Virus record (IMG/VR): IMGVR_UViG_3300024518_000034
Span: 62,001 to 126,000 of that record
Reading direction: 5' to 3' (one strand)
DNA: 64,000 bases
From: a virus
The notes beneath the pieces are model-generated. The model did not search any database. It was not told where the DNA came from and worked only from the letters and a program-made list of their open reading frames with translations. A program made the position numbers and the translations under genes. Below, one piece after another: positions 12,745-48,066 of this stretch (its first letter is position 1; each line of letters starts with the position of its first letter).

Positions 12745-13974
12745 ATGAGCGAGGGCAAGCGAAAAGTTATGTGGGTAAGTGATAGCCCACAATGGAGATA
12801 TGTTGGACAATCTAGAGTAACTAGAGAGGTCTGCAGAAGGTTGAATTCCAAATATGATATGTGTGTGGCTGGATTCTTTGATAAGAAAGAAGTTGGAAAA
12901 GAAGCAATATTTAAAGATGGATATCCAGTCTATAACATAACAAGGGATGCTACTGGATTAATTATTGACGCTATACATCATTATAATCCAGACGTGGTCA
13001 TCATGAGTCACGATTGCTGGGAGTTTCCAAACATAGAACTGTTTAGAAGAAAATTTCCAAAGATTAAATTTATTGGATGGTTTACTATTGATGGTGATCC
13101 GATAGATACAAAGTGGAAGAATTTGTTGGAAGCTTGCAATTTAATAATTAGTCCTACAGAATATGGAAAAAAAGTAATAAAAGATCAGTACATGCACTTA
13201 GATGTAGATGTTGTCTCGTATGGAATTGACCATTCTAATTTTTTTAAGATAGATCAGTTACAAAAAGAGATGCATCGTAAGAGTATAAGAATGAATAATG
13301 GGGCAAGTTTGGAGGGGAAATTTTGTGCTATTTTCACAGGACAAAATCACACTAGAAAAAATCTGGGAGCAGCCTTCGACGGATGGAATAGATTTTCTAA
13401 AGGAAAAGATGATGTGGCATATACCATCATCACCCATACGCGAAAAATTAAGCATGGAGAATGGGCTAACATGCCAGTAGATTATGATCTAGGCAATTGG
13501 TATAATGCTGATAGCATGTTAGTTGTGGATGGTGTAGTAGATGATCCAACTCTTTCTAGATTTTATCAAGTAAGTGATGTAATGTTGTTACCCACCCTAG
13601 GCGAGTCGCCTTCTCTGCCATTGTTGGAATCTATGGCTTGCGGAGTAGTGCCAATAGTTACTAATTATTCTGGCCCAACTGATTTCTGTAGGCATAATGA
13701 AAATGCCTTCTTGATGGAAGGAGTAGATTTTTGGCCTCAAATGTGGCATGTGAGAAGAAAGATAGTTTCGCCAGAAACAGTTCAAGAATCGTTGGAAATA
13801 ATGTATAACAAATGGAAAAATGAAAAGGCCAACTTTCACAAGTTGGCGCAAAATGCAGTGGCTGCTTCTAGAGAATACGATTGGGATAAATCGGCAGCGG
13901 GAATAATGAATAGTATTGAAAGTCTATTCAAAGAGAATAGAGTAGAGAGAACAAACAAGGTAACTAGAGTATGA
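12745..13974 (+). CDS. GT4-like glycosyltransferase (GT-B fold)
   Basis: A nucleotide-sugar glycosyltransferase. The N-terminal lobe opens with VMWVSDSPQWRYVGQSRV. The C-terminal lobe begins near CAIFTGQNHTRKNL and has the family hallmark GESPSLPLLESMACGVVPIVT (residues ~285-310), the acidic EX7E-type site that holds the nucleotide sugar. Length (409 aa) is normal for GT4. It opens a run of glycosyltransferase genes and overlaps the next by four bases. Acceptor and sugar cannot be inferred. In large phages such enzymes act on modified DNA, virion glycans or host surface polymers. Confidence 0.85.
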   Translation: MSEGKRKVMWVSDSPQWRYVGQSRVTREVCRRLNSKYDMCVAGFFDKKEVGKEAIFKDGYPVYNITRDATGLIIDAIHHYNPDVVIMSHDCWEFPNIELFRRKFPKIKFIGWFTIDGDPIDTKWKNLLEACNLIISPTEYGKKVIKDQYMHLDVDVVSYGIDHSNFFKIDQLQKEMHRKSIRMNNGASLEGKFCAIFTGQNHTRKNLGAAFDGWNRFSKGKDDVAYTIITHTRKIKHGEWANMPVDYDLGNWYNADSMLVVDGVVDDPTLSRFYQVSDVMLLPTLGESPSLPLLESMACGVVPIVTNYSGPTDFCRHNENAFLMEGVDFWPQMWHVRRKIVSPETVQESLEIMYNKWKNEKANFHKLAQNAVAASREYDWDKSAAGIMNSIESLFKENRVERTNKVTRV

Positions 13975-16196
13975 GATCTATAAACGTTTTTGGAACTTTT
14001 AATGGGGTTACTGGATATGACCATGTAGTTAGAAATATTGTAGAAAGAATGTATTTCAAGGGTATCGTTGTAGGATTGCATGATTTCAAGGAATGGTCGG
14101 GTACTAAGATACCTACGTCAGTTTTGTTACAGAATATGGTAAAAAGCGCACCGGCTGTGCGCTCTGATATGCTGTTAGCTTTTTGTTTACCAGAGCAGAT
14201 TTATAAAAATAAGAATCTGCACCAAGGAAAAATTATAGCTAATTACACTATGATGGAAACTGATAGGATACCTAGAAATTGGGTAGATTATGGTGCATCA
14301 AGTGATGTAATAATAGTGCCTACTCAATTTAATAAAAAGGCCTGGATAGATAGTGGAGTGAATGAGAACAGATTGGAGGTCGTACCGCTAGGAATTGATG
14401 TAGGTATGTACAATCCAAGCATTCACCCATTGCCATTATATGATGGTGACGAGCTAATAAATGACAAATATAAGTACAGATTCTTAAATATACAGGAAGC
14501 GGTAGATAGAAAGAATTTAGATGGCATATTAGAAAGCTGGATGATAGCTACTAAAGATAGAGACGATTGTTGCTTAATATTGAAGTTATCTTCATACTCA
14601 GAAAATAGATTAGACTTTTTCGGAACTAGAATGGATCGTATTAGAGAGAAGGTAGGAATCAAAAAAGAAGAACACGCGCCTATTTTTATATATTCTAATA
14701 TGTTGTTGGACTCACAAATGCCTTCATTACTTTCAACTTGTACACATTACATATCACTTAGTTTTGGCGAAGGGTGGGATCTAAATATGATCGCAGCAGC
14801 GTCGATGAATAAACAACTGGTAGCGCCAGACAATTCATCTTATAAAGAATATTTGAACGATGAGATTGCATTCATGATTGATACTAAATTAGAGCCAGCA
14901 AAACAAAGCGGACCAACAGCTAGAATCTATCATGGGTCAAACTGGGCAAGACCACAGATGGAATGTGTATTGGATACGTATAAGAAGATTTTTGATGGAG
15001 AAGTGAAGAAAGAAGCAAGAGAGGTGATTGCAAAAGAATATACTTGGGATCACACTGTAGACAATTTAATAAAGACATTAGATAGAAGATTTTATGGCAC
15101 TAAACCTTTTTCTCTACCCAAAGAAGTAGAGAAAAAAAAGACGGGTGTCATGTTAGTTTGCAAAAGTAATGTTGGTTCAGAGAAATGTGGAATATTGGAG
15201 TATAGCAAGTCATTGATAGGTGCATTTCAAAATTCGGAAGAAAAGTTAGATAAAGTGGGACTTATGGGCGGAAATGAGCCGACTTATGTCGATCATATTG
15301 ATAACAATGAAATAGCATTAGTGCATTATCAATATGAGTATCAGTTTCATAGCCCAAGTAGATTGAAGTTTATGTTTAGAGAATTAAAGGCTCGCGGTGT
15401 TAAAACGGTTGTGACTCAACACACTCTAACGAAAGAGGCTGCACCGCACAATTGCGTGATAAGAGATTATGCTGATGCTATCATAGTGCATAGTGATCGT
15501 AGTAAAGAATATGCTAGCGCACAATTAGGATATGATTCAAAAAAGGTTCACAAGGTTATAATGCCATGCAATCCAATCATAGAAGAGTTTGATTCCACTG
15601 TTCCATTGCCGAAAGACAAATTGAAGGTGGGATTTTTTGGATTTTCCTATTATCACAAGGGAATAAACAAACTTATAATTAACTACTATTCACTGAAACA
15701 GCACGAGGCTTTTAAGGATCTAATGTTAGTTATAGTTTCGAACAAGCCTAAGCAGGACCAGGTTGGATATTATGAACAATGTGTAAATATGTTGAACTAT
15801 TTTGGATTGAAGAACAAAGAAGATTACATTTGGATAGATAAGTTTTTACCTGAGGAACAAGCTGTAGGTTATTTGAACCAGTGTGACTGCATTATATTAC
15901 CATATGATGATTATGGTGGAGTAGGTACGAGTGCGGCAATAAGAACAGCTATGAGAGCAGGCAAGCCAGTTTTTGCATCAGACACTTGTTGGTTTTCTGA
16001 CATACCAGAAATAGTAGTACCTAGAATTAATGATGATAATTTCGAAGGAGATTTGAAATCATTGTTGGGTGAGGTTAGGAAAAAAGAGAATTCAGAGGCA
16101 CTTTCTGGTAGAGTTAAAAAGTATGTTGAGAGGAATTCATGGGAAGAGTCGGCAAGGCAGCACAGAGAGATATATCAAACGCTTATAGGTACTTAA
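13971..16196 (+). CDS. Tandem two-domain glycosyltransferase (GT-B + GT-B)
   Basis: Two complete GT4-like units are fused in 741 residues. The first (about 1-375) includes VVPLGIDVGMY and the sugar-site region SFGEGWDLNMIAAASMNKQLVAP. The second (about 390-741) starts with KSNVGSEKCGILEYSKSL and includes KVGFFGFSYYHKGINKL and CDCIILPYDDYGGVGTSAAIRTAMRAGKP. The second half resembles the separate protein at 25292-26281 in its opening CGI motif and in its closing aromatic segment. The ATG overlaps the preceding stop. A bifunctional enzyme adding two sugars in sequence is a reasonable inference. Confidence 0.85.
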   Translation: MRSINVFGTFNGVTGYDHVVRNIVERMYFKGIVVGLHDFKEWSGTKIPTSVLLQNMVKSAPAVRSDMLLAFCLPEQIYKNKNLHQGKIIANYTMMETDRIPRNWVDYGASSDVIIVPTQFNKKAWIDSGVNENRLEVVPLGIDVGMYNPSIHPLPLYDGDELINDKYKYRFLNIQEAVDRKNLDGILESWMIATKDRDDCCLILKLSSYSENRLDFFGTRMDRIREKVGIKKEEHAPIFIYSNMLLDSQMPSLLSTCTHYISLSFGEGWDLNMIAAASMNKQLVAPDNSSYKEYLNDEIAFMIDTKLEPAKQSGPTARIYHGSNWARPQMECVLDTYKKIFDGEVKKEAREVIAKEYTWDHTVDNLIKTLDRRFYGTKPFSLPKEVEKKKTGVMLVCKSNVGSEKCGILEYSKSLIGAFQNSEEKLDKVGLMGGNEPTYVDHIDNNEIALVHYQYEYQFHSPSRLKFMFRELKARGVKTVVTQHTLTKEAAPHNCVIRDYADAIIVHSDRSKEYASAQLGYDSKKVHKVIMPCNPIIEEFDSTVPLPKDKLKVGFFGFSYYHKGINKLIINYYSLKQHEAFKDLMLVIVSNKPKQDQVGYYEQCVNMLNYFGLKNKEDYIWIDKFLPEEQAVGYLNQCDCIILPYDDYGGVGTSAAIRTAMRAGKPVFASDTCWFSDIPEIVVPRINDDNFEGDLKSLLGEVRKKENSEALSGRVKKYVERNSWEESARQHREIYQTLIGT
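14145..14163 (+). repeat. Perfect 7-bp GC-rich inverted repeat in a glycosyltransferase gene
   Basis: AGCGCAC (14145-14151) and GTGCGCT (14157-14163) pair around a CGGCT loop. It is one of several short GC-rich hairpins inside coding DNA in this window. Confidence 0.6.
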
Positions 16197-16537
16197 TAGT
16201 AGACAGGCTTGAGGAAAAAGATTTAGATTTTATTGACTACACTGAAGAAGGAGGGTGCCTTTATCTTGGAAAAGATTGGAAAGATGGAGGTCACCAAACA
16301 TATGTAATAGGATTGTCTAGTAAGATGGTGGTGTTTTTAAAAGAATTAATAAGATATAAATTTGGAGTTATAGATTTAAAAAGTGGATCGTGGCATTATT
16401 TCATTTGGTCTAAGAACAAACCTGGAATTATTTGTACTATGTATCATAAGTTTAACGACAACATAGAGGGGGACTCAAGAAGATTTTGGAGAGTGATAAG
16501 ACTGTTAGCGGGAAATTTGAGGGCAAGAGATGAGTGA
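16139..16537 (+). CDS. Hypothetical protein, 132 aa
   Basis: Unrecognised. The start overlaps the preceding gene by 58 bases, which is long for this window, but GAGAGG sits five bases before this ATG and no other start codon with a site is apparent. The body is rich in aromatics (WHYFIWSKNKPGIICTMYHKF), suggesting a compact beta-rich fold. It overlaps the following glycosyltransferase by eight bases and so belongs to the sugar cluster. Confidence 0.6.
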   Translation: MGRVGKAAQRDISNAYRYLIVDRLEEKDLDFIDYTEEGGCLYLGKDWKDGGHQTYVIGLSSKMVVFLKELIRYKFGVIDLKSGSWHYFIWSKNKPGIICTMYHKFNDNIEGDSRRFWRVIRLLAGNLRARDE

Positions 16538-17444
16538 ACCAAAAATTAGTGTACATATATTGGCGAAGGAAACCACAGAGCTTGGAAACAGACTGTTTGA
16601 GTCATGTGTTCAATCTATATTGGATGCAGACTATGCGTATGAAATTATAATAGTTGATAACGGGTGTGAACCGGGACTTGTTGATGGGCAGTGGGGAGAA
16701 TGCCAAATAACAGTAATAGACGGAACAAACATTGCTGACTTTGCTGCATTAAGAAATCTAGCTTTAGAATACACAGGAAAAGATTGTACACATTTTCATT
16801 GGATTGACACTGATGAGTGCTATCCAAAAGAGACTTTATCAAAGCTAAAGGAAATGGCTAAAAATGATAATATTTCAGCAATAACTACGTGGTTTTGGCA
16901 CTTTATGATTGATCCTACACAATGGCAAGAACAACAGAATAAAACGAACTTCTACAAGCTTGTCCCAGGAATAAAATGGGAATTGCCAGTTCATGAGCAT
17001 CTAGTTGGATATGATAAAACGAAGGTGGCCCATCTGAACGCTTCATATCATCACTATGGATACATTAGGCCACAATGGGTCCAGGCGTTGAAGTGGATAA
17101 AGTATGACGTGTGGCAAAAAGGAAACGCAAATCATTATCGAGAATATTACGACGGAGGTTGGGAAAAGGTGGTAGACTATTATAGCGATGAAAGAACGCC
17201 AGATCAATGTTTAGAAGATCGCAGATCTTATTGCTCTAAATATATAGGGAATCACACGGATGGGTTTGAAAAGAATATAATAGAACCATGGATAGATAGT
17301 GGTAAGACCTGGAATGAGTGGCTTAAGACGATTAACGATTGCACAATGTGGGACGAGTGGGAAGAGAAGAGAAAAGAGTTGGGTTCGTGGAAAGACACAA
17401 TAAGTTGGGCATGTGAACGATATGGATTGAAAGAAAATGAATAA
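16530..17444 (+). CDS. GT2-like glycosyltransferase (GT-A fold)
   Basis: The opening KISVHILAKETTELGNRLFESCVQSIL and IIIVDNGCEPG are the nucleotide-binding start of family 2 glycosyltransferases. The DxD-type metal site is read in HFHWIDTDECYP (near residue 92), with LALEYTGKDCTHFHW as the preceding strand. The C-terminal half, with HEHLVGYDKTKVAHLNASYHHYGY, resembles SunS/TPR-type GT2 enzymes. Length 304 aa. It is one of three GT2 genes in a row, separated by tiny ORFs. Confidence 0.82.
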   Translation: MSEPKISVHILAKETTELGNRLFESCVQSILDADYAYEIIIVDNGCEPGLVDGQWGECQITVIDGTNIADFAALRNLALEYTGKDCTHFHWIDTDECYPKETLSKLKEMAKNDNISAITTWFWHFMIDPTQWQEQQNKTNFYKLVPGIKWELPVHEHLVGYDKTKVAHLNASYHHYGYIRPQWVQALKWIKYDVWQKGNANHYREYYDGGWEKVVDYYSDERTPDQCLEDRRSYCSKYIGNHTDGFEKNIIEPWIDSGKTWNEWLKTINDCTMWDEWEEKRKELGSWKDTISWACERYGLKENE

Positions 17445-17628
17445 AGCAACGCTAGAGAAAAACTACAAATTAACCTTGCAACTTACAGATGAAGAGATTC
17501 AGAACTATAAAGTGATATTGCATACATTTAAGACGTTGGGGGACAAGTCAGGTATAGCTGCAAAATATCCTGGTGCCGCGCTTTTAGCAGATGCCATTTT
17601 GTATTCTATTGAAGGAGACAACGAATGA
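17437..17628 (+). CDS. Hypothetical small protein, 63 aa
   Basis: Unrecognised. It overlaps the glycosyltransferases on both sides by eight and four bases, so it is translationally coupled to them. The content is helical (LTLQLTDEEIQNYKVILHTF), with an alanine-rich second half (AAKYPGAALLADAILYS). It may be a small accessory subunit. Confidence 0.6.
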   Translation: MNKATLEKNYKLTLQLTDEEIQNYKVILHTFKTLGDKSGIAAKYPGAALLADAILYSIEGDNE

Positions 17629-18338
17629 CAGTAGGAATGTTGATTTGCTCTTTTAACGACCTGGAATTAAGTAAAGTAATGTATCCATCTTTAGTTAAGT
17701 CAATGCCTAGTCATATTCCTTATGGAATTGTTGTAGTGGATGGCGGATCAACAGATGGATCGCTAGAGTTTTGGAAATCGAAGGCACCCGTGATACATCC
17801 AGGCGATTCAGATTTGCTAAAGCAGTTAAACGCTGAACCTGGAGATTTGAGACACTTATCTAGATCCTTAAATGTGGGAGGTAAGTATTTAATGGATAGT
17901 GGAGAGTATTCTCACATATTACACCCACATCCTGACATGGAATTTCCCCAAGAGGGGTGGGTAGAGACAATGGTCAATTATCTCAAAAAAGAGCCAAAAA
18001 TAGCTAAATTATCAGCAGATTGGGACCATTTGAGAATGGGAGATAGAGAGGGAAATCAATGCCCGTGGATAATGCCGGTTTCTGTAATCAAAGAAATGAT
18101 TGAAGGTGATGGATATTGGTTCGATCCAGAGTTTAGAGGGATTGGTGGAAGTGAAGACTGGGATCTAAATTGCAGGTTGATCAACAAGGGGTATCGTGTT
18201 ACAATTACATCTGATGCAATAGTAGAGCATGAGGGAATGGGAACTAGGGGTCAAAAGGGAAGAGACACTAACCAGGATGCTCTGTACAATAGAGGTTATT
18301 ATGTGAGCAAGTGGGGAACGCACATGTCCCCAGTATAG
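17625..18338 (+). CDS. GT2-like glycosyltransferase, short form
   Basis: VGMLICSFNDLELSKVMYPSL and IVVVDGGSTDGSLEFW are the standard GT2 opening. The sugar/metal region is SHILHPHPDMEFPQEGW, where an HPHPD sequence replaces the usual DxD. FRGIGGSEDWDLNCRLINKGY is the canonical late GT2 motif (EDxDL.RR.) with E/D-D-W-D. At 237 residues it is a minimal GT-A domain. It overlaps the preceding small ORF by four bases. Confidence 0.8.
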   Translation: MTVGMLICSFNDLELSKVMYPSLVKSMPSHIPYGIVVVDGGSTDGSLEFWKSKAPVIHPGDSDLLKQLNAEPGDLRHLSRSLNVGGKYLMDSGEYSHILHPHPDMEFPQEGWVETMVNYLKKEPKIAKLSADWDHLRMGDREGNQCPWIMPVSVIKEMIEGDGYWFDPEFRGIGGSEDWDLNCRLINKGYRVTITSDAIVEHEGMGTRGQKGRDTNQDALYNRGYYVSKWGTHMSPV

Positions 18339-18346: not shown

Positions 18347-18625
18347 ATGACAGTTAAAGAAGCAAAGAAGGCAGTGTACGGATTTATTGAAGACACAGAT
18401 CTTACAACGAGAGATGCGCTTGATTTTACTGAATTAGTAAATGACTTAATTGAGGCTGCAAAAGAAGAACAGAAAAGTTCATACGATGGTGAATTGCAGA
18501 GACTATATCATCTAATATATAATCAAGCTGTAAGTGCAGCAAGAGAAGCATTTGTACAAGGGATGAGGCCTCCTGAGAACAGTGAAGAGGCGAAAGAAGA
18601 GGTTGAGGAAGTTGCAAATGTCTAA
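18347..18625 (+). CDS. Hypothetical acidic protein, 92 aa
   Basis: ATG 18347 is chosen because AGGAGA lies six bases upstream. The protein is helical and becomes strongly acidic at the C-terminus (NSEEAKEEVEEVANV). It overlaps the next GT2 gene by eight bases. No family is recognised. Confidence 0.6.
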   Translation: MTVKEAKKAVYGFIEDTDLTTRDALDFTELVNDLIEAAKEEQKSSYDGELQRLYHLIYNQAVSAAREAFVQGMRPPENSEEAKEEVEEVANV

Positions 18626-19526
18626 ACCAAGAGTTGCTATAGTTATGACCACTATGAATCTTAAGTGGACAAAAATGGCATTACCAGATCTTATCGAGAA
18701 TACTAAGTATCCTTACGATCTAATATTGGTGGACGATTGCACTACAGATGAAGCTAGAAAATTTATCTGGAGTGGATATAAAGAAGTAGAAGACGCTTCG
18801 AAAGCGTTAAATAAGAAAATCGTTTGTTTTTCTACGGGAGAAGAGGACAGGCGAGGAGTTGCAGGATGTTGGAATATTGGGTTGGAAAAAGCGATAGAAG
18901 GTGATTATGAATATTGTTTGATTATGAACAATGACATAGCTTTTCCTGCACCAAAAGATGATAAATGCTGGCTTGAGAGACTAGTAGATTTGGGAGACAG
19001 TAATAAAGATTATGCTTGGCTGTCTCCAGCTTGGCATTGGACAGGTGAACCAGAAGCGGGAGGAATTAAGTGTTTTAAAGCTTCCTGTTGGGATTACACA
19101 GAAAAGCATAAAGATCAAATAGACGATGGAGGAATTGGGTGCTTCTTTATGCTTAGGATGGCTGATGTTAAGTGGATGAAGAATTCAGAAGAAGCTAAAG
19201 GTGAAGAGAATCATCCAGGCTTGTTTGATAAAACATCATATCCAACTAACTGGGAAGAAGTGGATTATTTGATAAGATTGAGGAGAAAAACCTCAATAAA
19301 GGTTAAAAATAAAACAGGAACATTTCACGCTGTAGCATTATATCATAAAGGTAGTGGTACAACGGGGTCGCCCGAATGGCATGGAAAAGTTAAAGTAGAT
19401 TACCAAACGGGACATGTCAACTTTTGTAAGAAATGGAATCTTCCTCATCCAAATAGTGGGTTTGGAGTGCATAATGCAATATATGAATATGTTAATAAAG
19501 ATGGCAAATGGGAAAAGGCAACATAG
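18618..19526 (+). CDS. GT2-like glycosyltransferase
   Basis: RVAIVMTTMNLKWTKMALPDLI and LILVDDCTTDEARKF form the GT2 nucleotide-binding start. GVAGCWNIGLEKAIEGDYEYCLIMNNDIAF carries the strand and the DxD-like NNDIAF metal site. TNWEEVDYLIRLRRK is the late acidic motif seen in rhamnosyltransferase-like GT2 enzymes. Length 302 aa. The start lies within the previous gene's last codons, eight bases of overlap. It is the last of the three GT2 genes, directly before glutamine synthetase. Confidence 0.82.
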   Translation: MSKPRVAIVMTTMNLKWTKMALPDLIENTKYPYDLILVDDCTTDEARKFIWSGYKEVEDASKALNKKIVCFSTGEEDRRGVAGCWNIGLEKAIEGDYEYCLIMNNDIAFPAPKDDKCWLERLVDLGDSNKDYAWLSPAWHWTGEPEAGGIKCFKASCWDYTEKHKDQIDDGGIGCFFMLRMADVKWMKNSEEAKGEENHPGLFDKTSYPTNWEEVDYLIRLRRKTSIKVKNKTGTFHAVALYHKGSGTTGSPEWHGKVKVDYQTGHVNFCKKWNLPHPNSGFGVHNAIYEYVNKDGKWEKAT

Positions 19527-19534
19527 GAGGTGAA

Positions 19535-20539
19535 ATGATTTTAGCAGAATACATATGGATAGATGGAACAACGCCAACAGCGAGGTTAAGATCAAAAACG
19601 AAAGTGTTAACTTTGGAAGACGAAGGAATTTGTCCAGATTGGAACTTTGATGGGTCGTCTACAAATCAGGCTGATGGAGACGATTCAGATGTTAAGCTTA
19701 AAGTTGTAAGAACGGTAAAAGATCCATTTAGAAAAGGTACGAATTACCTTGTTTTGTGTGAATGCACAACTCATGATGGCAAGCCTGTAGAAAGTAATGC
19801 AAGAGCTAAATTGAGAGCGCTGCTGGAGAGTGGTGTTAGAAAAAAGCATGAGCCGTGGGTTGGCTTTGAACAAGAATATACATTAATTGATGAAATATCT
19901 GGGAAACCAAAGGGATTCCCAGAGAGGGGATATCCATCACCGCAAGGGCCATATTATTGTGGAACAAATATACCAGGAAGGGTGGTAATGGAGAGGCATC
20001 TGCAGGCATGCATTGAGGCTGGGTTGAAAATTACGGGTACAAATGCTGAAGTCATGGTTGGGCAGTGGGAATATCAGATTGGCCATGGAGATCCGCTAGA
20101 GATTAGTGATCATCTGTGGATAGCTAGATATCTCTTGGAGAGGATAGCAGAGGAAGAGGGGGTAGGCGTAAGTTTGGAAAATAAACCAGTAAAAGGCGAT
20201 TGGAACGGATCAGGCGCACATTTAAACATATCTATTAAATCAACAAGAGAGAAAAACGGATTAGAGGCTATTGACAAAGTTATATCGAAGTTGAAAAAGT
20301 GTCACAGGGAACATATATTGGAGTATGGGCATGGGTTGGGAGAGAGACTTACTGGTGAACACGAGACTTGTCATATTGGTGAGTTTAAGTGGGGTGTAGC
20401 AGATAGAACTGCATCCATTAGAATTCCTTATAAAGTTTATAAGGATAAGAGGGGGTATTTTGAAGATAGAAGGCCAGGGGCCAATATTGATCCATATCGA
20501 GCATGTAGAAGGATGCTACAAACAATAGCAAGTGAATAA
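19535..20539 (+). CDS. Glutamine synthetase, type II (GSII-like)
   Basis: This enzyme would make glutamine from glutamate, ammonia and ATP. The order of motifs is that of the short, eukaryotic-type GSII family. They are WNFDGSSTNQA in the N-terminal beta-grasp, FEQEYTLID, GTNAEVMVGQWEYQIG (glutamate site), DWNGSGAHLNIS (ATP/Glu site), HETCHIGEFKWGVADRTASIRIP, and GYFEDRRPGANIDPY with the catalytic ED-RRP. At 334 residues it matches GSII (~350) rather than GSI (~470), and it lacks the GSI adenylylation loop. AGGAGG four bases before ATG 19535 fixes the start. It lies between a glycosyltransferase and an HNH gene. Confidence 0.92.
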   Translation: MILAEYIWIDGTTPTARLRSKTKVLTLEDEGICPDWNFDGSSTNQADGDDSDVKLKVVRTVKDPFRKGTNYLVLCECTTHDGKPVESNARAKLRALLESGVRKKHEPWVGFEQEYTLIDEISGKPKGFPERGYPSPQGPYYCGTNIPGRVVMERHLQACIEAGLKITGTNAEVMVGQWEYQIGHGDPLEISDHLWIARYLLERIAEEEGVGVSLENKPVKGDWNGSGAHLNISIKSTREKNGLEAIDKVISKLKKCHREHILEYGHGLGERLTGEHETCHIGEFKWGVADRTASIRIPYKVYKDKRGYFEDRRPGANIDPYRACRRMLQTIASE

Positions 20540-21026
20540 AAAATGTACAAAGTGTAATTCAAGTAAAGATATTTCTAATTTTTATAAAGATAAGCACAAT
20601 AAGGATGGGTATAATTATAGATGTAAATTTTGTGTGAATCAAGGAAATACGTGCAGTGAATGCGGTAAAAGTATTACAAAAAGATCAAAATATTGCGATA
20701 GGTGTTGTAAAATTGGAGTGAAAAATCCTGACTGGAAGGGCGGCAGAGTTGTAAGAGGGTCTGGCTATGTTAGGGTTAAGATGCGAGATCATCCGAATGC
20801 GCACGTTGATGGCTATGTATTTGAACACGTAATGATAATGTCTAAAATGATAGGAAGACCATTGTTAAAAAAAGAAACAGTACATCATAAAAATGGAATT
20901 AAAAATGATAATAGACTAGAAAATCTTGAATTGTGGAGTTCAGATCATCCTTCTGGTCAAAGAGTAAAAGATTTAGTAAAGTGGGCTAAAGAGATACTTA
21001 GAAAATATGGTGATAGATGCGACTAG
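20532..21026 (+). CDS. HNH endonuclease with N-terminal zinc finger
   Basis: The GTG start overlaps the glutamine synthetase stop by eight bases. The N-terminus has repeated Cys pairs (KCTKCNSS, CKFC, CSECGKS, CDRCC) that form one or two zinc fingers. The nuclease core is in the C-terminal half: FEHVMIMSKMIGRPLLKKETVHHKNGIKNDNRLENLELW, the HNH pattern with HH and two Asn. This arrangement is typical of phage free-standing homing-type endonucleases. Like the HNH gene after recA, it sits between two intact genes with overlapping ends. Confidence 0.82.
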   Translation: MNKKCTKCNSSKDISNFYKDKHNKDGYNYRCKFCVNQGNTCSECGKSITKRSKYCDRCCKIGVKNPDWKGGRVVRGSGYVRVKMRDHPNAHVDGYVFEHVMIMSKMIGRPLLKKETVHHKNGIKNDNRLENLELWSSDHPSGQRVKDLVKWAKEILRKYGDRCD

Positions 21027-21580
21027 AACTTGGACCAGGAAACGATCCGTCACCGGGTTTTGATTACTATGTAGACATTGCTCCTCTTGATCATGTAACT
21101 CATGTGCTTGATTTTGCCAAACAAGGACTGCAAGGTTTTGAGGATAACAGTCTTGATGAAATCTTAGCTATACATTTTCTTGAGCATTTACCACAAGGCA
21201 AGCAAAGTTATTTTTTTGCTGAATGTAAGAGAAAACTAAAAGTGGGCGGCAAGCTTGTAGTACATGTACCAAACTTAGAAACGATATTTAGAGCATATGA
21301 GTGTTTTAAAAATAATAACCAATATGATGCGCTTATGACAGAGCTTCAATCGATGTTATTTGGTGTACACAATGGTGATGTTTATTCTGTGCATAAAATA
21401 GCGTATAATTGGCAAATATTAGAGAAAATGTTTCACAATCATGGGTATGAGCCTGTGAGAAACCTAACAGGAATAAAAAAGGACAGACACACTGTTGGTT
21501 GGGAGTGGGTCACAAAGTATATAAGAGATGCTGGTGGAGTCACACCAGAATTTAGTTTAATAGTAGAAGGGAAAAAATAA
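21017..21580 (+). CDS. Class I SAM-dependent methyltransferase
   Basis: LELGPGNDPSPGFDYYVDI is a degenerate SAM-binding motif I with the acidic residue of motif II (VDI). LDEILAIHFLEHLP is the post-II/motif III region, in the ubiE/SAM-dependent methyltransferase_11 style. KLKVGGKLVVHVPN is motif IV. Length 187 aa is that of a bare catalytic domain. The GTP-like VYSVHKIAYNWQILEKMFHNHGYEPV tail matches proteins annotated as predicted SAM-dependent methyltransferases in polysaccharide clusters. The substrate is unknown; a sugar or glycan is plausible from the neighbours. Confidence 0.75.
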   Translation: MRLELGPGNDPSPGFDYYVDIAPLDHVTHVLDFAKQGLQGFEDNSLDEILAIHFLEHLPQGKQSYFFAECKRKLKVGGKLVVHVPNLETIFRAYECFKNNNQYDALMTELQSMLFGVHNGDVYSVHKIAYNWQILEKMFHNHGYEPVRNLTGIKKDRHTVGWEWVTKYIRDAGGVTPEFSLIVEGKK

Positions 21581-22560
21581 TGAAATCACCGGGAAAAAAG
21601 TTTAAAGAATTAATCGAAAAAGATGGATATATTTTTACAGGTGGAGTATACGATGCTATATCTGCAAAAGTAGCAGCGATGGCTGGAATGAAGGCTTTGT
21701 ATTTGTCAGGATATTCTCAGTCATTGGGGTTGCTTGGAAGATCAGATATGGAATTTGTACAGAGACATCAGGCTGTTGACAATTCGAGAAGAGTAGCAGA
21801 GTCACTAGAAGATGGCGGATTTGATGTCCCAGTAATCGCAGATGCAGATACAGGCTATGGGTCAGTTAATCAGGTTCAATACACTGTGAGGTCGTTTGAG
21901 CGTGCTGGTGTTGCAGGTGTACATCTAGAGGATCAAACGATTCCTAAGAGGTGCGGGCATATTGCAGGAAAGACAGTGCTTCCTATGGAGGAAAGCGTTG
22001 GAAAGATTGCAGCAGCAGTTGATGCAAAAACGGACAAGGATTTCATTATTATAGCAAGAACTGATGCATTGGGTGCAGCCGGTGGATCTATGGAAGATGC
22101 AGTTAAGAGAGCTATCGCGTACCACGACGCAGGTGCTGACATGGTATGGTGCGAGTTTGGCAGTGCATCTAGAGAGTTAGCTAAAGAGTTTGCATATCTT
22201 ACAACATCGTTAAGACCAAAAATGGGTTTGGCTTTTAACTATTCTTCGTCATTTAAGTGGCACGAGCAAAAAGAGCCTATGGTCGCTGAAGAATTGCACG
22301 AGATGGGCTATACATTTATGTTTGTAACATTGTTTGGTATTCATGCTGCAACGCTAAGCTTGTATAATCATTTTGAAAATATGTATGTAGACGGACCAGT
22401 GGCTCAGTGGGATTTAGAAGTGCTTAAGAAAAATCATCCAACGGAGAGTCATCACGTCATGGGAGATACTGCAACATATCAAGCAGTAGAGCAGAAGTTT
22501 CTGCCAACTGTGGCAACTGAAAGAATTGAAGCATCAGAAGGATATAAGGAAGAAAAATAA
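21580..22560 (+). CDS. Isocitrate lyase (short form, ICL/PEPM superfamily)
   Basis: Isocitrate lyase splits isocitrate into succinate and glyoxylate. The catalytic signature KRCGH is present with C125. GVYDAISAKVAAMAGMKALYLSG and VIADADTGYG (metal-binding Asp residues) precede it, and IIIARTDALGAAGG follows. The tail separates this from methylisocitrate lyases: FNYSSSFKW matches the ICL SPSFNW motif, and MGYTFMFVTLFGIHA, HPTESHH and TERIEASEGYKEEK match the ICL C-terminus. At 326 residues it lacks the long insert of the E. coli enzyme (434 aa). It is followed at once by a CitE-like gene (22562), pairing the two halves of a glyoxylate-shunt-like route. Confidence 0.85.
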   Translation: MKSPGKKFKELIEKDGYIFTGGVYDAISAKVAAMAGMKALYLSGYSQSLGLLGRSDMEFVQRHQAVDNSRRVAESLEDGGFDVPVIADADTGYGSVNQVQYTVRSFERAGVAGVHLEDQTIPKRCGHIAGKTVLPMEESVGKIAAAVDAKTDKDFIIIARTDALGAAGGSMEDAVKRAIAYHDAGADMVWCEFGSASRELAKEFAYLTTSLRPKMGLAFNYSSSFKWHEQKEPMVAEELHEMGYTFMFVTLFGIHAATLSLYNHFENMYVDGPVAQWDLEVLKKNHPTESHHVMGDTATYQAVEQKFLPTVATERIEASEGYKEEK

Positions 22561-22561: not shown

Positions 22562-23551
22562 ATGCATCCAAGTGAAGCGTTAGTTGAAAGAGGGACTAAG
22601 GATATACCAACAATGTCGCCAGTTGAACATTTCTGCGGGACGGAAAAGTTTGTAAAGAAAGCGATGAAAATTCAGCAAGAGAGAAATGGTGATTTTGACA
22701 TTACTATCGATCTGGAAGATGGTGCGCCAAAAGGTAAAGAGAAAGACAACCTTGATATGGCTATTGCTATGATCAAGTCAGACGACAATAAGTTTAATAG
22801 AATAGGTGTACGTATCCATGACCCAGGAAACGATTGGTGGTTTAAAGAGGCTAATTTATTGAGAGAAGAAGTTGGAGATAGATTAGCTTATATAACTTTG
22901 CCAAAAGTTCTAGGTGCGGAAGATGTAATGAAAATGAGAACAACGCTTTTTAGGTCAAACCTTTCTCTGCATGTAATCATTGAAACGCTTGAGGCGTTTC
23001 AGAATTTAGATGACATTTTAAAAGTACACAATGTAGATTTAGTAGATTTTGGCCTTATGGACTTTACATCTGCCCACCAGGGAATTCTTTCAAGAGATGT
23101 AATGAAATCGCCGCAGCAGTTTACAAACCCATTGATGCAATATTATAAGTCACAGTTTGTGGCAAAAGCCTTGGCAGCAGGTAAAGTGCCAGCACACAAT
23201 GTAACAGTGGATGTTGGTAAAAAGGACTTAGCATATAAAGACGCAGCAACAGCAAGAAACGATTTCGGCTTCTTGCGTATGTGGTCCGTCTTTCCTGCTC
23301 AGATAGATGAAATTATGAGAGGCATGGCGTCAGCATATAATCTCTTGCAGTTGAAGGCGTATTCTGATATCCTATGTAAGGCTCAAGAAGCGGACTGGGG
23401 TCCAATCGGTTATATGGGTAAGATGGAAGACAGAGCAACGTATAGACTTTATTGGCAGACTCTGAAGAGAGCAAGAAGTGTAACTGGAGTTGAAATTCCA
23501 GCAGAAGCAGAAGAAAGATTTTTTAAGGACGTTAAGCTAGTGGGAGCATAA
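22562..23551 (+). CDS. CitE / malyl-CoA lyase-like aldolase (HpcH/HpaI superfamily)
   Basis: This TIM-barrel lyase family cleaves or forms citryl-, malyl- or related CoA esters; some members act as malate synthases. The marks are ITIDLEDGAPKGKEKDN (the DLEDxx metal/CoA motif), RIGVRIHDPG, ITLPKV, HVIIETLEAFQNLDDIL (catalytic Glu in the I-E-T motif), and VDFGLMDFTSAHQG (second metal-binding Asp). The C-terminus FGFLRMWSVFPAQIDEI matches the CoA-binding end. Length is 329 residues. ATG 22562 is one base after the isocitrate lyase stop. From this pairing it is inferred to condense glyoxylate with an acyl-CoA, but the exact substrate cannot be read. Confidence 0.75.
   Translation: MHPSEALVERGTKDIPTMSPVEHFCGTEKFVKKAMKIQQERNGDFDITIDLEDGAPKGKEKDNLDMAIAMIKSDDNKFNRIGVRIHDPGNDWWFKEANLLREEVGDRLAYITLPKVLGAEDVMKMRTTLFRSNLSLHVIIETLEAFQNLDDILKVHNVDLVDFGLMDFTSAHQGILSRDVMKSPQQFTNPLMQYYKSQFVAKALAAGKVPAHNVTVDVGKKDLAYKDAATARNDFGFLRMWSVFPAQIDEIMRGMASAYNLLQLKAYSDILCKAQEADWGPIGYMGKMEDRATYRLYWQTLKRARSVTGVEIPAEAEERFFKDVKLVGA
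22981..23001 (+). repeat. Perfect 8-bp inverted repeat in the CitE-like gene
   Basis: TGAAACGC (22981-22988) and GCGTTTCA (22994-23001) form a perfect stem around TTGAG. It is coding DNA without a T-tract. Confidence 0.6.
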
Positions 23552-23554: not shown

Positions 23555-23905
23555 ATGTATTTAAACAAGTATCAAGAAGAAGCGACAAGAACAGCTAGGA
23601 ATTTTGAAGACGTTGAAATGGGGCCAACCAAGTTGGCCCTAGCTAATTGGGCGCTAGGTTTAGCAGGTGAAGCAGGAGAGGCGGCAGAGCTTGTAAAAAA
23701 GCATGTATTTCACGGACATGAGTTAGATTTGGCTGAAGTTAGAAAAGAGCTAGGTGATGTGTTGTGGTATATAGCTAATCTGGCTGAAACTGTGGGACTG
23801 GAAATGGAAGATATAGCTAAGGCTAATATTGAAAAGTTGAAAGCTAGATATGGTGATGGGTTTTCAGAAGAGAAATCTCAAAATAGAGTAGAATATAGCA
23901 ACTAA
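23555..23905 (+). CDS. MazG-like nucleotide pyrophosphohydrolase
   Basis: An all-helical NTP pyrophosphatase. The metal-binding motif EAGEAAELVKKH (ExxE) and the second acidic pair KELGDVLWYIANLAE (ExxD) are both clear. Length 116 aa is that of a single MazG-like domain. Members hydrolyse NTPs or dNTPs; in phages they are proposed to lower (p)ppGpp or to clean unusual nucleotides. It lies after the isocitrate lyase/CitE pair, and a perfect GGGCCAA/TTGGCCC hairpin occurs at 23621-23639 in its 5' part. Confidence 0.88.
   Translation: MYLNKYQEEATRTARNFEDVEMGPTKLALANWALGLAGEAGEAAELVKKHVFHGHELDLAEVRKELGDVLWYIANLAETVGLEMEDIAKANIEKLKARYGDGFSEEKSQNRVEYSN
23621..23639 (+). repeat. Perfect 7-bp inverted repeat in the mazG-like gene
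   Basis: GGGCCAA (23621-23627) and TTGGCCC (23633-23639) pair around CCAAG within coding DNA. Confidence 0.6.
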
Positions 23906-24816
23906 TGAACATATTAATGCTTTTTGCTTTTACTGATAAACCAGCCTCTCCAGCTTGGTATATCAGAAGGTCTTTTCTTCGTATGGGTCATAGTATAACT
24001 ACGATGGGCCATAATTGTGAGATTAATACTAAAGGTAAAAATCCTTATCAAACTCAAAACATTCACAGTATAATAAAAAAGAAGAATATTGATCTAGTTT
24101 TGGAAATAGACTCTGGAGGTTTTGACATAAGTTGGAACCCTGGACCTTTGAAGAATCAATATAAGAATGTTAAATTTGTATACTGGGGATCAGATACACA
24201 CTTGGGAACTGTTGCAGGAGTGTATGGGAACAAGAGAAAAAGATACGATTTGGCATTTTTCGCACAGAAGAAGTTTATTGATGATCAGCATATGTCTCAC
24301 AGGTATTGGTTACCACACGCATGTGATCCAGAATTTCACAATCCAGACATAAAAGACAAGAAGAAGATTCACGATGTAACATTTATTGGACATAAGCATC
24401 CTACGGTACATGGTAAAAGAATTACCTTGCTTCAAATGATTAAAAATGATAGAATAAACATTAATGACAGGTGTTATATTTATACAGATAAGATGGGTGC
24501 TGAGTTCGTTAAAAGCAGAATTGTGTTGAATTGTTCATTGAATGGCGACTTAAATATGAGGTTTTTTGAAGCCATGTGTTCTGGTGCATGTTTGCTGACT
24601 GATTGGTCAGATCATGGAGGTTTTACAGAACAAGGATTTAAAAGAGGGGAACATTATTGTGCTTACGATAGTAATCGTCATGCGGTGACAGCGATAAGAG
24701 CATTGCTTAACGACCATGAGAAAAGAAAGAGAATAGCTAAGGCTGGACAAAAGTATGTTTTGGAAAATCATACCTATGATAATAGGGCGAAAAAAATATT
24801 AAGTTTTGTAGAATGA
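23905..24816 (+). CDS. CgeB-like glycosyltransferase
   Basis: This looks like the CgeB / Glyco_trans_1_2 type of GT-B enzyme. AWYIRRSFLRMGHSITTMGHN opens the first lobe, KFVYWGSDTHLG and HACDPEFHNP form the interdomain region, and DVTFIGHKHPTVHGKRITLL starts the second. The nucleotide-sugar site is LNMRFFEAMCSGACLLTDW (E..A.G...LT). Length 303 aa fits the family. The ATG shares its A with the preceding stop. It resumes the glycosyltransferase run interrupted by the metabolic genes. Confidence 0.78.
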   Translation: MNILMLFAFTDKPASPAWYIRRSFLRMGHSITTMGHNCEINTKGKNPYQTQNIHSIIKKKNIDLVLEIDSGGFDISWNPGPLKNQYKNVKFVYWGSDTHLGTVAGVYGNKRKRYDLAFFAQKKFIDDQHMSHRYWLPHACDPEFHNPDIKDKKKIHDVTFIGHKHPTVHGKRITLLQMIKNDRININDRCYIYTDKMGAEFVKSRIVLNCSLNGDLNMRFFEAMCSGACLLTDWSDHGGFTEQGFKRGEHYCAYDSNRHAVTAIRALLNDHEKRKRIAKAGQKYVLENHTYDNRAKKILSFVE

Positions 24817-25295
24817 GCAGCACTGTTGATTATTTTGGTATTGTTTACGGAAGGAATCAAACAATGAATTGGAAATATTACGAACTAGTTGAAGGCGTGC
24901 ATAATAAGTTTTGGATGATAGCTAGACATGAAGATGGAAAAGGATTCACGGCGCGATGGGGGAAAATTGGAACAACTGGTCAAATGCAAATGAAGAATTT
25001 TTCAAGCGTAAGTAGGACTATAAAAGCCTTTAATGACAAAGTGTGGGAGAAAACTAAAAAGAGGTATGTATTAAAACATCATGGGGATGATTTCTTGACA
25101 GCGGAAGGTGCTAATGCGTATAGGCCTGGTCGCCCAATTACGGAAACTATGAAGTACTTCAGAAGAAGAGATCCAATCGTACATGATCCAAATAAGACAA
25201 TCACACCGGCACCAAAGAAGAAAAAAGCTAAAGGTAAGAAGACTGCGATAAAGCCAAAGTTTAAAATAAGAATAAGGAAAAGAAAAGCAGAATGA
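24813..25295 (+). CDS. WGR-domain protein with basic tail
   Basis: Residues ~20-85 form a WGR domain: WKYYELVEGVHNKFWMIARHE, then FTARWGKIGTTGQMQMKNF, then TIKAFNDKVWEKTKKRYV. This domain occurs in PARPs and bacterial MolR-type proteins and binds DNA ends or nucleic acid. The rest is Pro/Lys-rich, ending in PKFKIRIRKRKAE. A start at 24864 (with AAGGAA before it) would begin right at the domain; 24813 overlaps the prior stop. The neighbours are glycosyltransferases, so the link between DNA binding and sugar chemistry is unexplained. Confidence 0.75.
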   Translation: MSSTVDYFGIVYGRNQTMNWKYYELVEGVHNKFWMIARHEDGKGFTARWGKIGTTGQMQMKNFSSVSRTIKAFNDKVWEKTKKRYVLKHHGDDFLTAEGANAYRPGRPITETMKYFRRRDPIVHDPNKTITPAPKKKKAKGKKTAIKPKFKIRIRKRKAE

Positions 25296-26281
25296 AGATA
25301 GCAATGTTGACAACATGGGATGTCCGATGTGGTATCGCACAAAACTCAAAGTTTTTAGTAGATGCATTAATTGAAGCTGGACATGAGGTGGGATTATTTG
25401 TTCAATTTAGTAATGATATTGAAAAGAAAGAAAGAGTGCCTCCTTCCTGCATCCATAGAAGAGATAAGAATGGCGAGTATTGGTCATATTTTAAATTATG
25501 GCGATGTTGGAGTTGGTATGGGAGATCAGATAAAGTAGAATTTGATGTAGAACCAATTAAGGAATTTAAGCCAGACGTGATTCACGTTCAATATGAGTCA
25601 TTCCTTTGGCATGAATCATACTTGCCGCAACTAAAAGGTATAGCACCGATAGTAATAACCCACCATTCGTCTTGTACGGGTCCAGGTTGTCCTGTAAATG
25701 AAGCACAGGCTAATGTTGTACACGATGAAGAGTTTCCCGCTTTACCTAATAGGAGAATAATCCCTATGGGCATTCCAGACACCTTTGATTTTGTTAATTT
25801 CGAAGACACAGAACCAGTAATGGGTTCGTTTGGATTGCACAGAAATAATGATGACTATTGTAAGGAGGCCATGACTTTGGTCAGTAAAGCGTTGTCAGCA
25901 CCTATTCATTATAGAACACATTATGGCAATTCAAAATGGGTTCCAACAGAAGAACTGGTAAAAATCTTACAGAAGAATAGAATGTTGGCTTTGATTTATC
26001 CAAAAACAGGCGCTGTGGTGTCGAGTAGTGCAGCATGTGTAGCTTTGGGGGCAGGACTTCCTGTATTATGTTCAAACACTAGGTGGTTTAAACATTTAAG
26101 TAAATATGTACATCTTATTGATACTGTAGAAGAGATGGCTCACATTATAGGTCATTATATGGTAGAGGAAGATTTTTGGAATATTGCAAGAGATAGGGCT
26201 ACGCAGGCCAGAGAAGAAAGAGGCTGGAGTAAGATTGCTAAACAACACGAGAATCTATATAAGGAGATTTTAAATGGATGA
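25292..26281 (+). CDS. GT4-like glycosyltransferase
   Basis: KIAMLTTWDVRCGIAQNSKFLVDALIEAGHEV is the usual GT-B opening (M.tt....GI......L...L...GH.V). DVIHVQYESFLWH and IVITHHSSC close the first lobe. The C-terminal lobe ends with YPKTGAVVSSSAACVALGAGLPVLCSNTRWF, analogous to the sugar-binding E...A...G.P.L region but with Ser/Ala in place of the usual acidic residue. Length 329 aa. It resembles the second half of the 741-aa tandem enzyme at 13971-16196. It is the last gene of the glycosyltransferase run. Confidence 0.78.
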   Translation: MKIAMLTTWDVRCGIAQNSKFLVDALIEAGHEVGLFVQFSNDIEKKERVPPSCIHRRDKNGEYWSYFKLWRCWSWYGRSDKVEFDVEPIKEFKPDVIHVQYESFLWHESYLPQLKGIAPIVITHHSSCTGPGCPVNEAQANVVHDEEFPALPNRRIIPMGIPDTFDFVNFEDTEPVMGSFGLHRNNDDYCKEAMTLVSKALSAPIHYRTHYGNSKWVPTEELVKILQKNRMLALIYPKTGAVVSSSAACVALGAGLPVLCSNTRWFKHLSKYVHLIDTVEEMAHIIGHYMVEEDFWNIARDRATQAREERGWSKIAKQHENLYKEILNG

Positions 26282-28477: not shown

Positions 28478-29939
28478 ATATAGGCTACATCAATTAACAG
28501 ACGAAGAACTGTGTAGTGATAGTATGGTTAGAAGTGCTGCTGATGAGGAAAATTATCCTGGGTTTGAATTTAGACCGCTAAGAAAAAAGGATTATTTTAG
28601 TCCAGAGAAAGAGATGGAAGTGCCTATGGCTCCTATGGATTTATATAATGAATTAGGAGAAGCGATAACAGAAGAAGAAAGACAGGTAGAACAAGGAGGA
28701 TTTCCTTCTATACCTGAAAAAGAAAGAAACCTTCCTCAAATGAGGGAGGAAAGAAGAGATCTGGAAGATCCAGAAGCTGCAATGCGTGTGTTAGGAGTAT
28801 ATTCTGAAAGATTTGAGGAGATTGCTGATAAGGTTTTTCAAATAAAGCGAGGATTGAAATCTATCACTGACGAGATTGAAAAAAAGAAAGAAGAACATAA
28901 AGCTAATGTTGAAATTGTAAGAACGTTAGCGATACGTGATAAAATATATCACACAATGAACACGGCAATAATACCTATATTTAAAACACATAGGAGAATA
29001 ATATGGGCAGTCCAGCAAGAAATCAAAAGGACAACTAAAGAATCTAGTTGGTATACAACACCTGAAGAGATTGAAGAGTTAAACGCTAAATATCCAAGAA
29101 GAGAACCTTTCAGATATGAAACTACGTCAAAAGGCGTTCGTTTCTTGAGAATGAGAGAGTTTAAGGATAGGTGGGTAGATGATAGAGAAGAAGAAAATAA
29201 AATCTATCAAAACATGGGCAATGCTGTAGCTTCTGCGTGGCAATCCTATGAGAGAGCGCTGAGACTTAAGGGTGAATTTTTGATAAGATATGCACAGCAG
29301 GATAATCTCTTAATGGCCCTAGAGAGTCTCGCAAATGATATGGAAGTTTTGGCGCAAGCAGCTTCGGAATTGGCAGAGCGAGATAGACAGACGGAAATGG
29401 CACTTGGGGCAGAATTGGAGATGCCTAAGGCAGCAAAATTAATTTCCCCAGATAACTTTTCTAAGATAGCTGTTGAAACTTTAGATGAGTTTTTGCAGCC
29501 GCCAATGATGTCAGATTTAGACGAAGAGGAACAAGGAATTCCTCCAGCCCAGCCAATAATGGATGATGGGACTCTAGAGCCTATTCCAGTAGACGATGAT
29601 GAATTTTTAAGACTTAAGTTTCCTGAAAATGATAGGATGCCTGAGTCGATGTGGGCAAAAATTCAATTTGCTGGAGCTAAGAATCTTTTAATAAGTATAA
29701 CTTATACAAAGATCACCCCACCTGAAGAAGGAATGACTAAGTCGTATGTCGTTGAACCATATTCGTTTAGATTGAAGCGACCAAGGCGCACAGGAGGCGG
29801 CTCACAGTATTATTTCTTTGCATATGATACAGAGGATCACCATATTAAAGGTTTTATATACAGGCGTATTCAGAGTATAGAAATATTGCCAGAGAGTTTT
29901 GATCCTAGATGGGAGGTTGAATTTCATTGGGCAGATTAG
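28443..29939 (+). CDS. Large protein with C-terminal WYL-like domain
   Basis: Residues ~100-330 are helical and probably coiled-coil (EEIADKVFQIKRGLKSITDEIEKKK; ALESLANDMEVLAQAASELAER). The last ~90 residues read as a WYL-type fold: a strand ISITYTKI, then SYVVEPYSFRLKRP, then QYYFFAYDTEDHHIKGFIYRRIQSIEIL. These correspond to the P.xL, Y.xAYD and R.F.xxRI positions of WYL domains. WYL domains bind ligands or nucleic acid in bacterial regulators and defence proteins. A GTG start at 28413 is possible, but ATG 28443 is taken; neither has an ideal site. It overlaps the small membrane gene upstream and APS kinase downstream. Confidence 0.7.
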   Translation: MENIQKKKKLLKYRLHQLTDEELCSDSMVRSAADEENYPGFEFRPLRKKDYFSPEKEMEVPMAPMDLYNELGEAITEEERQVEQGGFPSIPEKERNLPQMREERRDLEDPEAAMRVLGVYSERFEEIADKVFQIKRGLKSITDEIEKKKEEHKANVEIVRTLAIRDKIYHTMNTAIIPIFKTHRRIIWAVQQEIKRTTKESSWYTTPEEIEELNAKYPRREPFRYETTSKGVRFLRMREFKDRWVDDREEENKIYQNMGNAVASAWQSYERALRLKGEFLIRYAQQDNLLMALESLANDMEVLAQAASELAERDRQTEMALGAELEMPKAAKLISPDNFSKIAVETLDEFLQPPMMSDLDEEEQGIPPAQPIMDDGTLEPIPVDDDEFLRLKFPENDRMPESMWAKIQFAGAKNLLISITYTKITPPEEGMTKSYVVEPYSFRLKRPRRTGGGSQYYFFAYDTEDHHIKGFIYRRIQSIEILPESFDPRWEVEFHWAD

Positions 29940-30451
29940 GTAAGTGTATTTGGTTATATGGGTTGTCAGGATCGGGAAAGTCCACGATTGCAAATGAGCT
30001 TTTGATGAGGTGGGGGCCGTTTCACGTCACTTTATTAGATGGAGATGAAGTGAGAAAAAACTTATCTTATGGGTTAGGATTTTCTAAAGAGGATAGAGAA
30101 AGACACGCACTGAGGGTGGCGTGGGTTGCAGCAGAAATAGTAAGACATGGAGGAACTGCAATAGCTGCTTTAATTACACCTTATGAATCTACTAGAGAAA
30201 AAATAAGAGAAATTGTAGGAAAAGAAAATCTTATTGAAGTTTATGTGGATACTGCCTTAGAGGAGTGTGAAAAGAGAGATCCTAAGGGGTTGTATAAGAA
30301 AGTTAGAGCGGGCGAAATTAAAAATTTTACTGGAATAAGTGATCCTTTTGAGTTTCCAAAAGAAGATCCAGACGTAATTATAGATACTTCAAAATGCTCA
30401 CCAATTGATGCTGTGGGCAAAATATATAAAGTTTTAATGGACAATGAATAG
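29927..30451 (+). CDS. cysC: Adenylylsulfate (APS) kinase
   Basis: APS kinase phosphorylates APS to PAPS, the universal sulfate donor. Walker A is GLSGSGKST (residues 12-20). LLDGDEVRKNLSYGLGFSKEDRERH is the APS-binding region, and KRDPKGLYKKVRAGEIKNFTGISDPFEFP the mobile lid, both diagnostic of CysC. Length 174 aa is typical. The start is probably TTG 29927, because no ATG or GTG occurs before the first strand and GGGAGG is ten bases upstream. It overlaps the WYL-like gene by 13 bases and the following WYL-like gene by eight. No sulfotransferase is visible in the window, so use of the product is unknown. Confidence 0.88.
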   Translation: MGRLGKCIWLYGLSGSGKSTIANELLMRWGPFHVTLLDGDEVRKNLSYGLGFSKEDRERHALRVAWVAAEIVRHGGTAIAALITPYESTREKIREIVGKENLIEVYVDTALEECEKRDPKGLYKKVRAGEIKNFTGISDPFEFPKEDPDVIIDTSKCSPIDAVGKIYKVLMDNE

Positions 30452-46978: not shown

Positions 46979-47052
46979 GCCTCCGTAACTCAATTAGGTA
47001 GAGTACCCGCCTTTTAAGCGGCACAGTCTTGGTTCGATTCCAAGCGGAGGTA
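46979..47052 (+). tRNA. tRNA-Lys(TTT)
   Basis: Acceptor GCCTCCG/CGGAGGT, T arm with loop TTCGATT, and anticodon loop CTTTTAA on a CCGC/GCGG stem give anticodon TTT. CCA is not encoded. First gene after the tRNA-array promoter. Confidence 0.88.
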
Positions 47053-47074
47053 TAAGAAAAGGGAGGGTAGTAAT

Positions 47075-47455: not shown

Positions 47456-47661
47456 TATAACGTGCAGCGCACAGGTTGCGGGCTAATTGGGAGTCTAGTG
47501 GCAGATGCAGAAGCGGTAAACCCAATGGATCTGAAACTACAAGTACACGTTAAATATTACCGAGCGGTAAAAAGGAGTAGCAAAAGCGGCTGAAGTCGGT
47601 ATAATATTACCGAGCGGTAAAATTAGTCGCTTATCAAGACAGCCTGGAAAGACAGGCAACT
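47456..47661 (+). other. Structured non-coding segment between tRNAs, with two 19-bp repeats
   Basis: No ORF or complete tRNA fits here. The 19-base sequence AATATTACCGAGCGGTAAA occurs at 47553-47571 and again at 47603-47621, exactly 50 bases apart; each contains TTACC/GGTAA. Around the second copy, TCGGTA/TACCGA and AAGCGGCT/AGTCGCTT form nested stems. GCCTG/CAGGC around GAAAGA follows at 47642-47658. Upstream, AACGTG (47459-47464) and CACGTT (47546-47551) bracket a segment that has an inner ATTGGG/CCCAAT stem. This looks like a structured RNA, or processing hairpins for the tRNA transcript. Confidence 0.5.
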
Positions 47662-47734: not shown

Positions 47735-47747
47735 TTAGAAACAAAAT

Positions 47748-48008: not shown

Positions 48009-48066
48009 TAATTGTGTATAGAATATAACTAAAATACACTATAGTACTTATAATAGGGTGAAGAAA

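Follow-up and report, generated by a model that had tools for sequence, protein, structure and literature searches.

What is the role of a type II glutamine synthetase (GSII) encoded among the glycosyltransferase genes of a phage, and which enzymes would consume its glutamine? The gene lies in a window (the whole 64,000-nucleotide stretch that was analysed) that covers positions 62001-126000 of a 192,308-base IMG/VR record. The record also encodes a portal, a major head protein, a phage ribonucleotide reductase and GroES, therefore the setting of the gene is a tailed phage. Given the 192-kb record and these phage genes, the location is a genuine phage genome and not a cellular flank. Another contig carries a portal that is 94% identical to that of the record. 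We consider it probable, at roughly two chances in three, that the window protein (hereafter window GS) is a catalytically competent GSII that supplies ordinary glutamine to the host amidotransferases of nucleotide and amino-sugar synthesis.

Enzyme class and predicted fold

GSII proteins have about 330-370 amino acids, with an N-terminal beta-grasp domain and a C-terminal catalytic domain, and they form decamers of two five-membered rings. The window GS, assigned to this type by profile, residue and fold evidence, is encoded at 19535-20539 (+ strand) by an open reading frame of 334 aa with a stop codon at 20537-20539 and without internal stops. In the sequence, a Shine-Dalgarno motif AGGAGG (19525-19530, + strand) ends 4 nt before the ATG at 19535, and because of this placement that ATG was preferred over an earlier in-frame ATG at 19508. 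The motif overlaps the stop codon (19524-19526) of the upstream family 2 glycosyltransferase gene, so translational coupling of the two genes is possible. The genes around the GS are all on the + strand, with small or no spacing between them. A promoter scan gave no more matches than were found in shuffled sequences.

Both Pfam domains were found above cut-off (Gln-synt_C 2e-20, Gln-synt_N 4e-10), and the matches to the NCBIfam GlnII profile (1.6e-127) and to the PDB entry 4bax (1e-102) are likewise so significant that chance similarity is excluded. The NCBIfam scores are clearly in favour of GlnII, i.e. 425 bits versus 61 and 66 bits for types I and III and 56 bits for gamma-glutamylputrescine synthetase. 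The score of 425 bits is below the 500-bit cut-off of the GlnII equivalog NF041605. Among other phage GSIIs, the one short-loop protein scanned against this profile also stayed below it (438 bits), and two proteins with a normal loop passed (501 and 541 bits).

All of the 13 metal and substrate positions checked are kept in the window GS. These include the metal ligands Glu112, Glu114, Glu172, Glu179, His229 and Glu310, a set taken from the Medicago GSII (PMC3975887), as well as the flap residues Arg271 and Glu277, which correspond to R299 and E305 of the human enzyme (PMC12236511), and five further positions (Arg291, Arg296, Arg312, Asp39 and Ser42). The same 13 residues are conserved in 78 out of 78 viral GSII rows examined. 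Moreover, of the 91 columns in which 70 other GSIIs show a conservation of 95% or more, 85 are retained in the window GS.

The AlphaFold2 model, calculated for the monomer only and from an alignment of 27 sequences, reached a pLDDT of 89.9 and a pTM of 0.92. The closest solved structures to the window GS are GSIIs, and the structural matches to this type span 328-331 residues (maize 2d3a: Z 45.1, rmsd 1.7 over 331 residues; Streptomyces 4bax: Z 44.9). The predicted fold is nearer to GSII (Z about 45) than to GSI (Z about 32). In a BFVD fold search a GSII-like match was not found among the matches listed. Compared with the GlnII of Streptomyces coelicolor (4bax) and maize (2d3a), the window GS has the same length, two-domain fold and ligands, with 48-53% structural identity. 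It differs from the cellular GlnII proteins in that it is phage-encoded, has a loop that is 3 residues shorter and scores below the curated HMM cut-off.

The earlier note had described a complete GSII with intact ligands and had named mutated ligands, or a polyamine ligase, as what would speak against it. The description holds, since none of the checked ligands is mutated. A gamma-glutamylpolyamine or gamma-glutamylmethylamide synthetase shares the superfamily fold (the methylamide synthetase GmaS, 7cqn, matches the model with Z 31.4), and yet such an activity is extremely improbable: the 56 bits obtained with the gamma-glutamylputrescine synthetase profile NF045547 compare with a cut-off of 650 and with 425 bits for GlnII, and the Z score is about 14 units below that of the GSIIs. 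The GSII class thus stands and, as far as can be judged from its sequence, the window protein is a complete GSII of ordinary chemistry.

The shortened loop after Tyr141

One of the six departures from the conserved columns is a residue that is missing in the loop after Tyr141. In the alignment, codons 141-148 (19955-19978, + strand) encode this tyrosine followed by CGTNIPG. The corresponding Tyr162 of the human enzyme has been called an active-site residue (PMC10011836). The segment from Tyr141 to His155 has 15 residues in the window GS and 18 (80 rows) or 20 (24 rows) in cellular GSIIs, i.e. the loop is 3 residues shorter than in 104 out of 104 cellular sequences compared. In 18 of the 78 viral rows the loop is one residue shorter still (YYCGRN..G). 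These rows, e.g. L181, L198 and L273, form a single phage-only clade (SH-aLRT 99), and among the sequences compared the shortening was seen outside the window GS only in this clade. The site of the shortening is the same as in the window GS; unlike the window gene, many members adjoin genes for ribonucleotide reductase and family B DNA polymerase. Placing the window GS together with the short-loop clade is compatible with the AU test (p 0.25-0.28).

In the human enzyme, the interface between subunits of the same ring has hot spots at Y162, V165 and R173 (PMC6274088). It is possible that the loop shortening alters regulation or assembly, and the short loop may shift kinetics or assembly. A more radical reading is that the window GS is an inefficient glutamine maker, i.e. 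a decoy or an altered ligase whose assembly or substrate is changed by the short loop. The position of the 3-residue shortening, beside Tyr141 and between the human contact hot spots, and the long branch of the protein (0.68-0.98) are in keeping with it. However, the catalytic residues and the predicted fold are intact and the short-loop phage clade retains every catalytic residue, which makes this reading very improbable.

The glycosyltransferase cluster and its accessory genes

The cluster genes, all of them on the + strand, include a group 1 glycosyltransferase (12745-13974) and a two-domain glycosyltransferase (13971-16196), both recognised by Pfam and shared with related phages as the conserved core. 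Further Pfam-supported family 2 glycosyltransferases are found at 16530-17444, where the relatives were also compared, and immediately upstream of the GS at 18582-19526. Between them lies a GT-A-like protein (17625-18338), named by reading only, without a Pfam match, which has a homologue in both related phages. Downstream of the GS there are an HNH endonuclease (20532-21026, Pfam HNH_3) that overlaps the GS end by 8 nt, a SAM methyltransferase (21017-21580, Methyltransf_11), an isocitrate lyase-like protein (21580-22560), a CitE-like (HpcH/HpaI) lyase (22562-23551) and, by Pfam, a MazG-type pyrophosphohydrolase (23555-23905), a glycosyltransferase (23905-24816, Glyco_trans_1_2) and a family 4-like glycosyltransferase (25292-26281). 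The glycosyltransferase neighbours are thus real by Pfam and phage genes are present in the record, in agreement with the earlier note's location of the GS in a phage glycosyltransferase cluster. The same note had placed it next to isocitrate lyase. The enzyme label is upheld by 45% identity to AceA and a KRCGH motif, and the adjacency is only approximate, as the HNH and methyltransferase genes (20532-21580) lie in between.

Two phages related to the window phage, of 194 and 127 kb, have head proteins 54-55% identical to its own. Both keep the order SbcC followed by three glycosyltransferases (24-37% identity), and neither the GS nor isocitrate lyase was found in them. Since the glycosyltransferase core is kept in relatives in which no GS or isocitrate lyase was found, these two genes and the CitE-like gene were probably added as accessory genes to a conserved glycosyltransferase cluster.

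The position of the gene invites the reading that its glutamine serves solely the glycan pathway of the local cluster, i.e. amino or amidated sugars, and not nucleotides. Not only does the GS lie among glycosyltransferases, with a ribosome site that overlaps a glycosyltransferase stop codon, but other phages combine GSII, glycosyltransferases, DegT aminotransferases and GlmS within a single locus. On the other hand, the window-phage genes examined did not yield an aminotransferase, GlmS or a sugar amidotransferase, the two relatives have the core without the GS, and another phage clade holds GSII among replication genes. We regard a role restricted to glycans as somewhat unlikely.

The closest relative found for the isocitrate lyase-like protein is haloarchaeal, namely the AceA of Haladaptatus (45% identity over 322 aa), the gene of which lies directly before aceB. 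The CitE-like protein groups with PDB 3qqw (282 bits) and 3r4i, which are given only as "CitE-like" (PMC3832036). By reading, several of its bacterial homologues adjoin genes for aconitase, malate dehydrogenase or citrate synthase. It was also considered as a haloarchaeal malate synthase, but its similarity to the AceB of Haladaptatus (21 bits) is negligible. To judge from the sequences, a glyoxylate-type role of the pair is plausible.

A similar combination is known from TARA_ERS478052_N000008, a virus of 179 kb that has surface-polysaccharide genes as well as an aceBA operon (PMC5332604). The two phages are alike in that each is large and has a glyoxylate-shunt-type gene together with surface-sugar genes; they differ in that the TARA aceB is a malate synthase while the partner gene in the window is CitE-like. 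The text of PMC5332604, as searched, does not mention a GS. Single-protein IMG/VR scans found no relatives of either the isocitrate lyase or the CitE-like gene. A package of the two common to GSII phages was rejected, as isocitrate lyase was not found in the 18 viral records searched. The earlier suggestion that the phage controls nitrogen and carbon flow is unproven; none of the other GSII phages examined yielded an isocitrate lyase.

Some further observations concern the surroundings. The HNH gene that overlaps the GS end is possibly a mobile partner of the accessory module. An APS kinase gene is located at 29927-30451 of the window, and record positions 126276-136172 (L020 276-10172) hold sulfotransferase-like genes, a GT10 fucosyltransferase, GT15, an FkbM methyltransferase, a radical SAM-SPASM protein and a sulfatase-like gene. 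Together these may form a sulfated-glycan locus with its own PAPS supply. Twelve tRNA genes are present within 6 kb at window positions 46979-53069.

Distribution, neighbours and proposed use of phage GSII

A rarity of phage GSII, as the earlier note implied, is contradicted by its distribution. Scanned with a single sequence, IMG/VR yielded 13 loci; scanned with a profile, it yielded at least 578 stretches that encode relatives, a figure that is not a pure count of GSII phages as some contigs may be cellular; the best 80 of these were examined. One contig, L015, has neighbours that look bacterial and was left out of the viral set in the clade test. We note that the contig L010/L064, apparently the same 83,794-base GSII contig and viral in IMG/VR, has been deposited under the Prochlorococcus single-cell genome AG-409-L21. 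Published phages of 634-735 kb carry GSII too, and moraphages and jumbo phages have already been reported with a GS (PMC12619734, PMC13037316). Like the window phage, these are large tailed phages of aquatic or other environmental origin. The accessible parts of the two papers name the GS in general terms, with its type, loop and neighbourhood undiscussed; in the window phage, by contrast, the GS sits in a glycosyltransferase cluster with isocitrate lyase.

In the first tree, treatment of the phage GSIIs as monophyletic fails the AU test (p 1e-5), therefore a single phage origin is rejected and the gene was acquired more than once and then retained in phage lineages. Rejected as well were alternatives in which the window GS joins the remaining phage GSIIs in the same half of that tree (p 0.013) or the glycosyltransferase-linked phage GSIIs L201, L203 and L224 (AU p 0.018). 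A quick tree placed it as sister to the maize GSII, a meeting of two long branches that we do not trust, and the AU test does not reject it (p 0.44). No cellular donor of the window GS was identified, the best cellular identity being 54-57%. In each of the seven pairs of close phage GSIIs for which usable values were obtained, dN was far below dS (0.02-0.16 and 0.16-3.1, respectively).

Pfam annotation of 85 proteins encoded immediately beside phage GSII, after dereplication of the loci, gave ribonucleotide reductase 10 times, family B DNA polymerase 9 times, Clp-type protease 8 times, ThyX 4 times, group 1 glycosyltransferase 3 times and IMPDH once; these are raw counts without a null comparison, and those of the reductase and the polymerase come largely from one phage clade and are not independent. 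In three phages of 185-191 kb and their 127-kb relative, GSII is directly followed by glycosyltransferase genes, and in the three longer stretches these are followed in turn by sugar epimerases, DegT aminotransferases and cytidylyltransferases.

GlmS and PurF are consumers of glutamine. Two related phages of the glycosyltransferase-linked set have GlmS in the same cluster as GSII (588 and 584 bits, cut-off 418), and a 216-kb phage with a short-loop GSII has PurF (432 bits, cut-off 350), NagB-like and IMPDH-family genes within 9 kb. In these phages the glutamine-consuming enzymes lie within about 8-17 kb of GSII. Near the GSII, NagB-like, PurF and IMPDH-family genes of the 216-kb phage there is also a second, divergent GS-like protein (L273 6987-8267, 426 aa, GlnII 87 bits). 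Other IMPDH/GMP-reductase family genes are located about 7.5 kb from a phage GSII (L003 1440-2384) and directly downstream of one (L187 4041-5075), the latter GSII having, by reading, a dUTPase-like gene upstream. The linkage of GlmS and PurF to phage GSII, the loop change and the accessory status of the gene are new here.

The locations of the relatives suggest that the glutamine feeds DNA building blocks and sugar coats. The GATase_6 domain of GlmS and PurF had no match in the window phage, therefore its glutamine would serve host enzymes, and for the same reason the sink assigned to the window GS is borrowed from other phages. The idea of the earlier note that glutamine is used for amino sugars is supported in an indirect manner, by the two related phages with GSII and GlmS in one glycosyltransferase cluster; the window phage itself lacks GlmS.

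In the literature (PMC12619734, PMC11944383), phage glnA is usually taken for a general nitrogen-assimilation gene, i.e. one that captures ammonium or relieves ammonia stress, serves no particular sink and brings a gain under nitrogen scarcity. Many phage GSIIs indeed have no glutamine-using gene next door. However, the linkage to PurF and GlmS and the frequent replication-gene neighbours point to biosynthetic sinks, and an ammonium transporter, a PII protein and glutamate synthase were not seen among the window-phage genes examined. This general role therefore appears unlikely.

Under the preferred reading, supply to host amidotransferases, GSII would have been gained horizontally as an accessory gene within the conserved glycosyltransferase cluster. 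We infer that the enzyme is expressed during infection and active, presumably as a decamer, and converts ATP, glutamate and ammonia to glutamine. It would thereby enlarge or maintain the glutamine pool and let the amidotransferases, those of the host in the case of the window phage, keep running. The putative sinks are the purine and pyrimidine amidotransferases for DNA, and GlmS for the amino sugars used by the glycosyltransferases. A broader and rather doubtful proposal is that phages evolved their own short-loop GSII variants, freed from normal regulation or altered in assembly, as a recurrent nitrogen-supply module for phage or host PurF and GlmS in large phages.

As a rule, phage glutamine synthetases are put down as genes of the nitrogen cycle, and no purpose is given. 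The linkages to GlmS and PurF offer one that is concrete and testable, i.e. amide nitrogen for sugars and nucleotides. The window GS is one more case, with a notable setting in a glycan cluster beside isocitrate lyase, and the phage-only loop change provides a naturally occurring series of enzymes with which the regulation of GSII could be studied.
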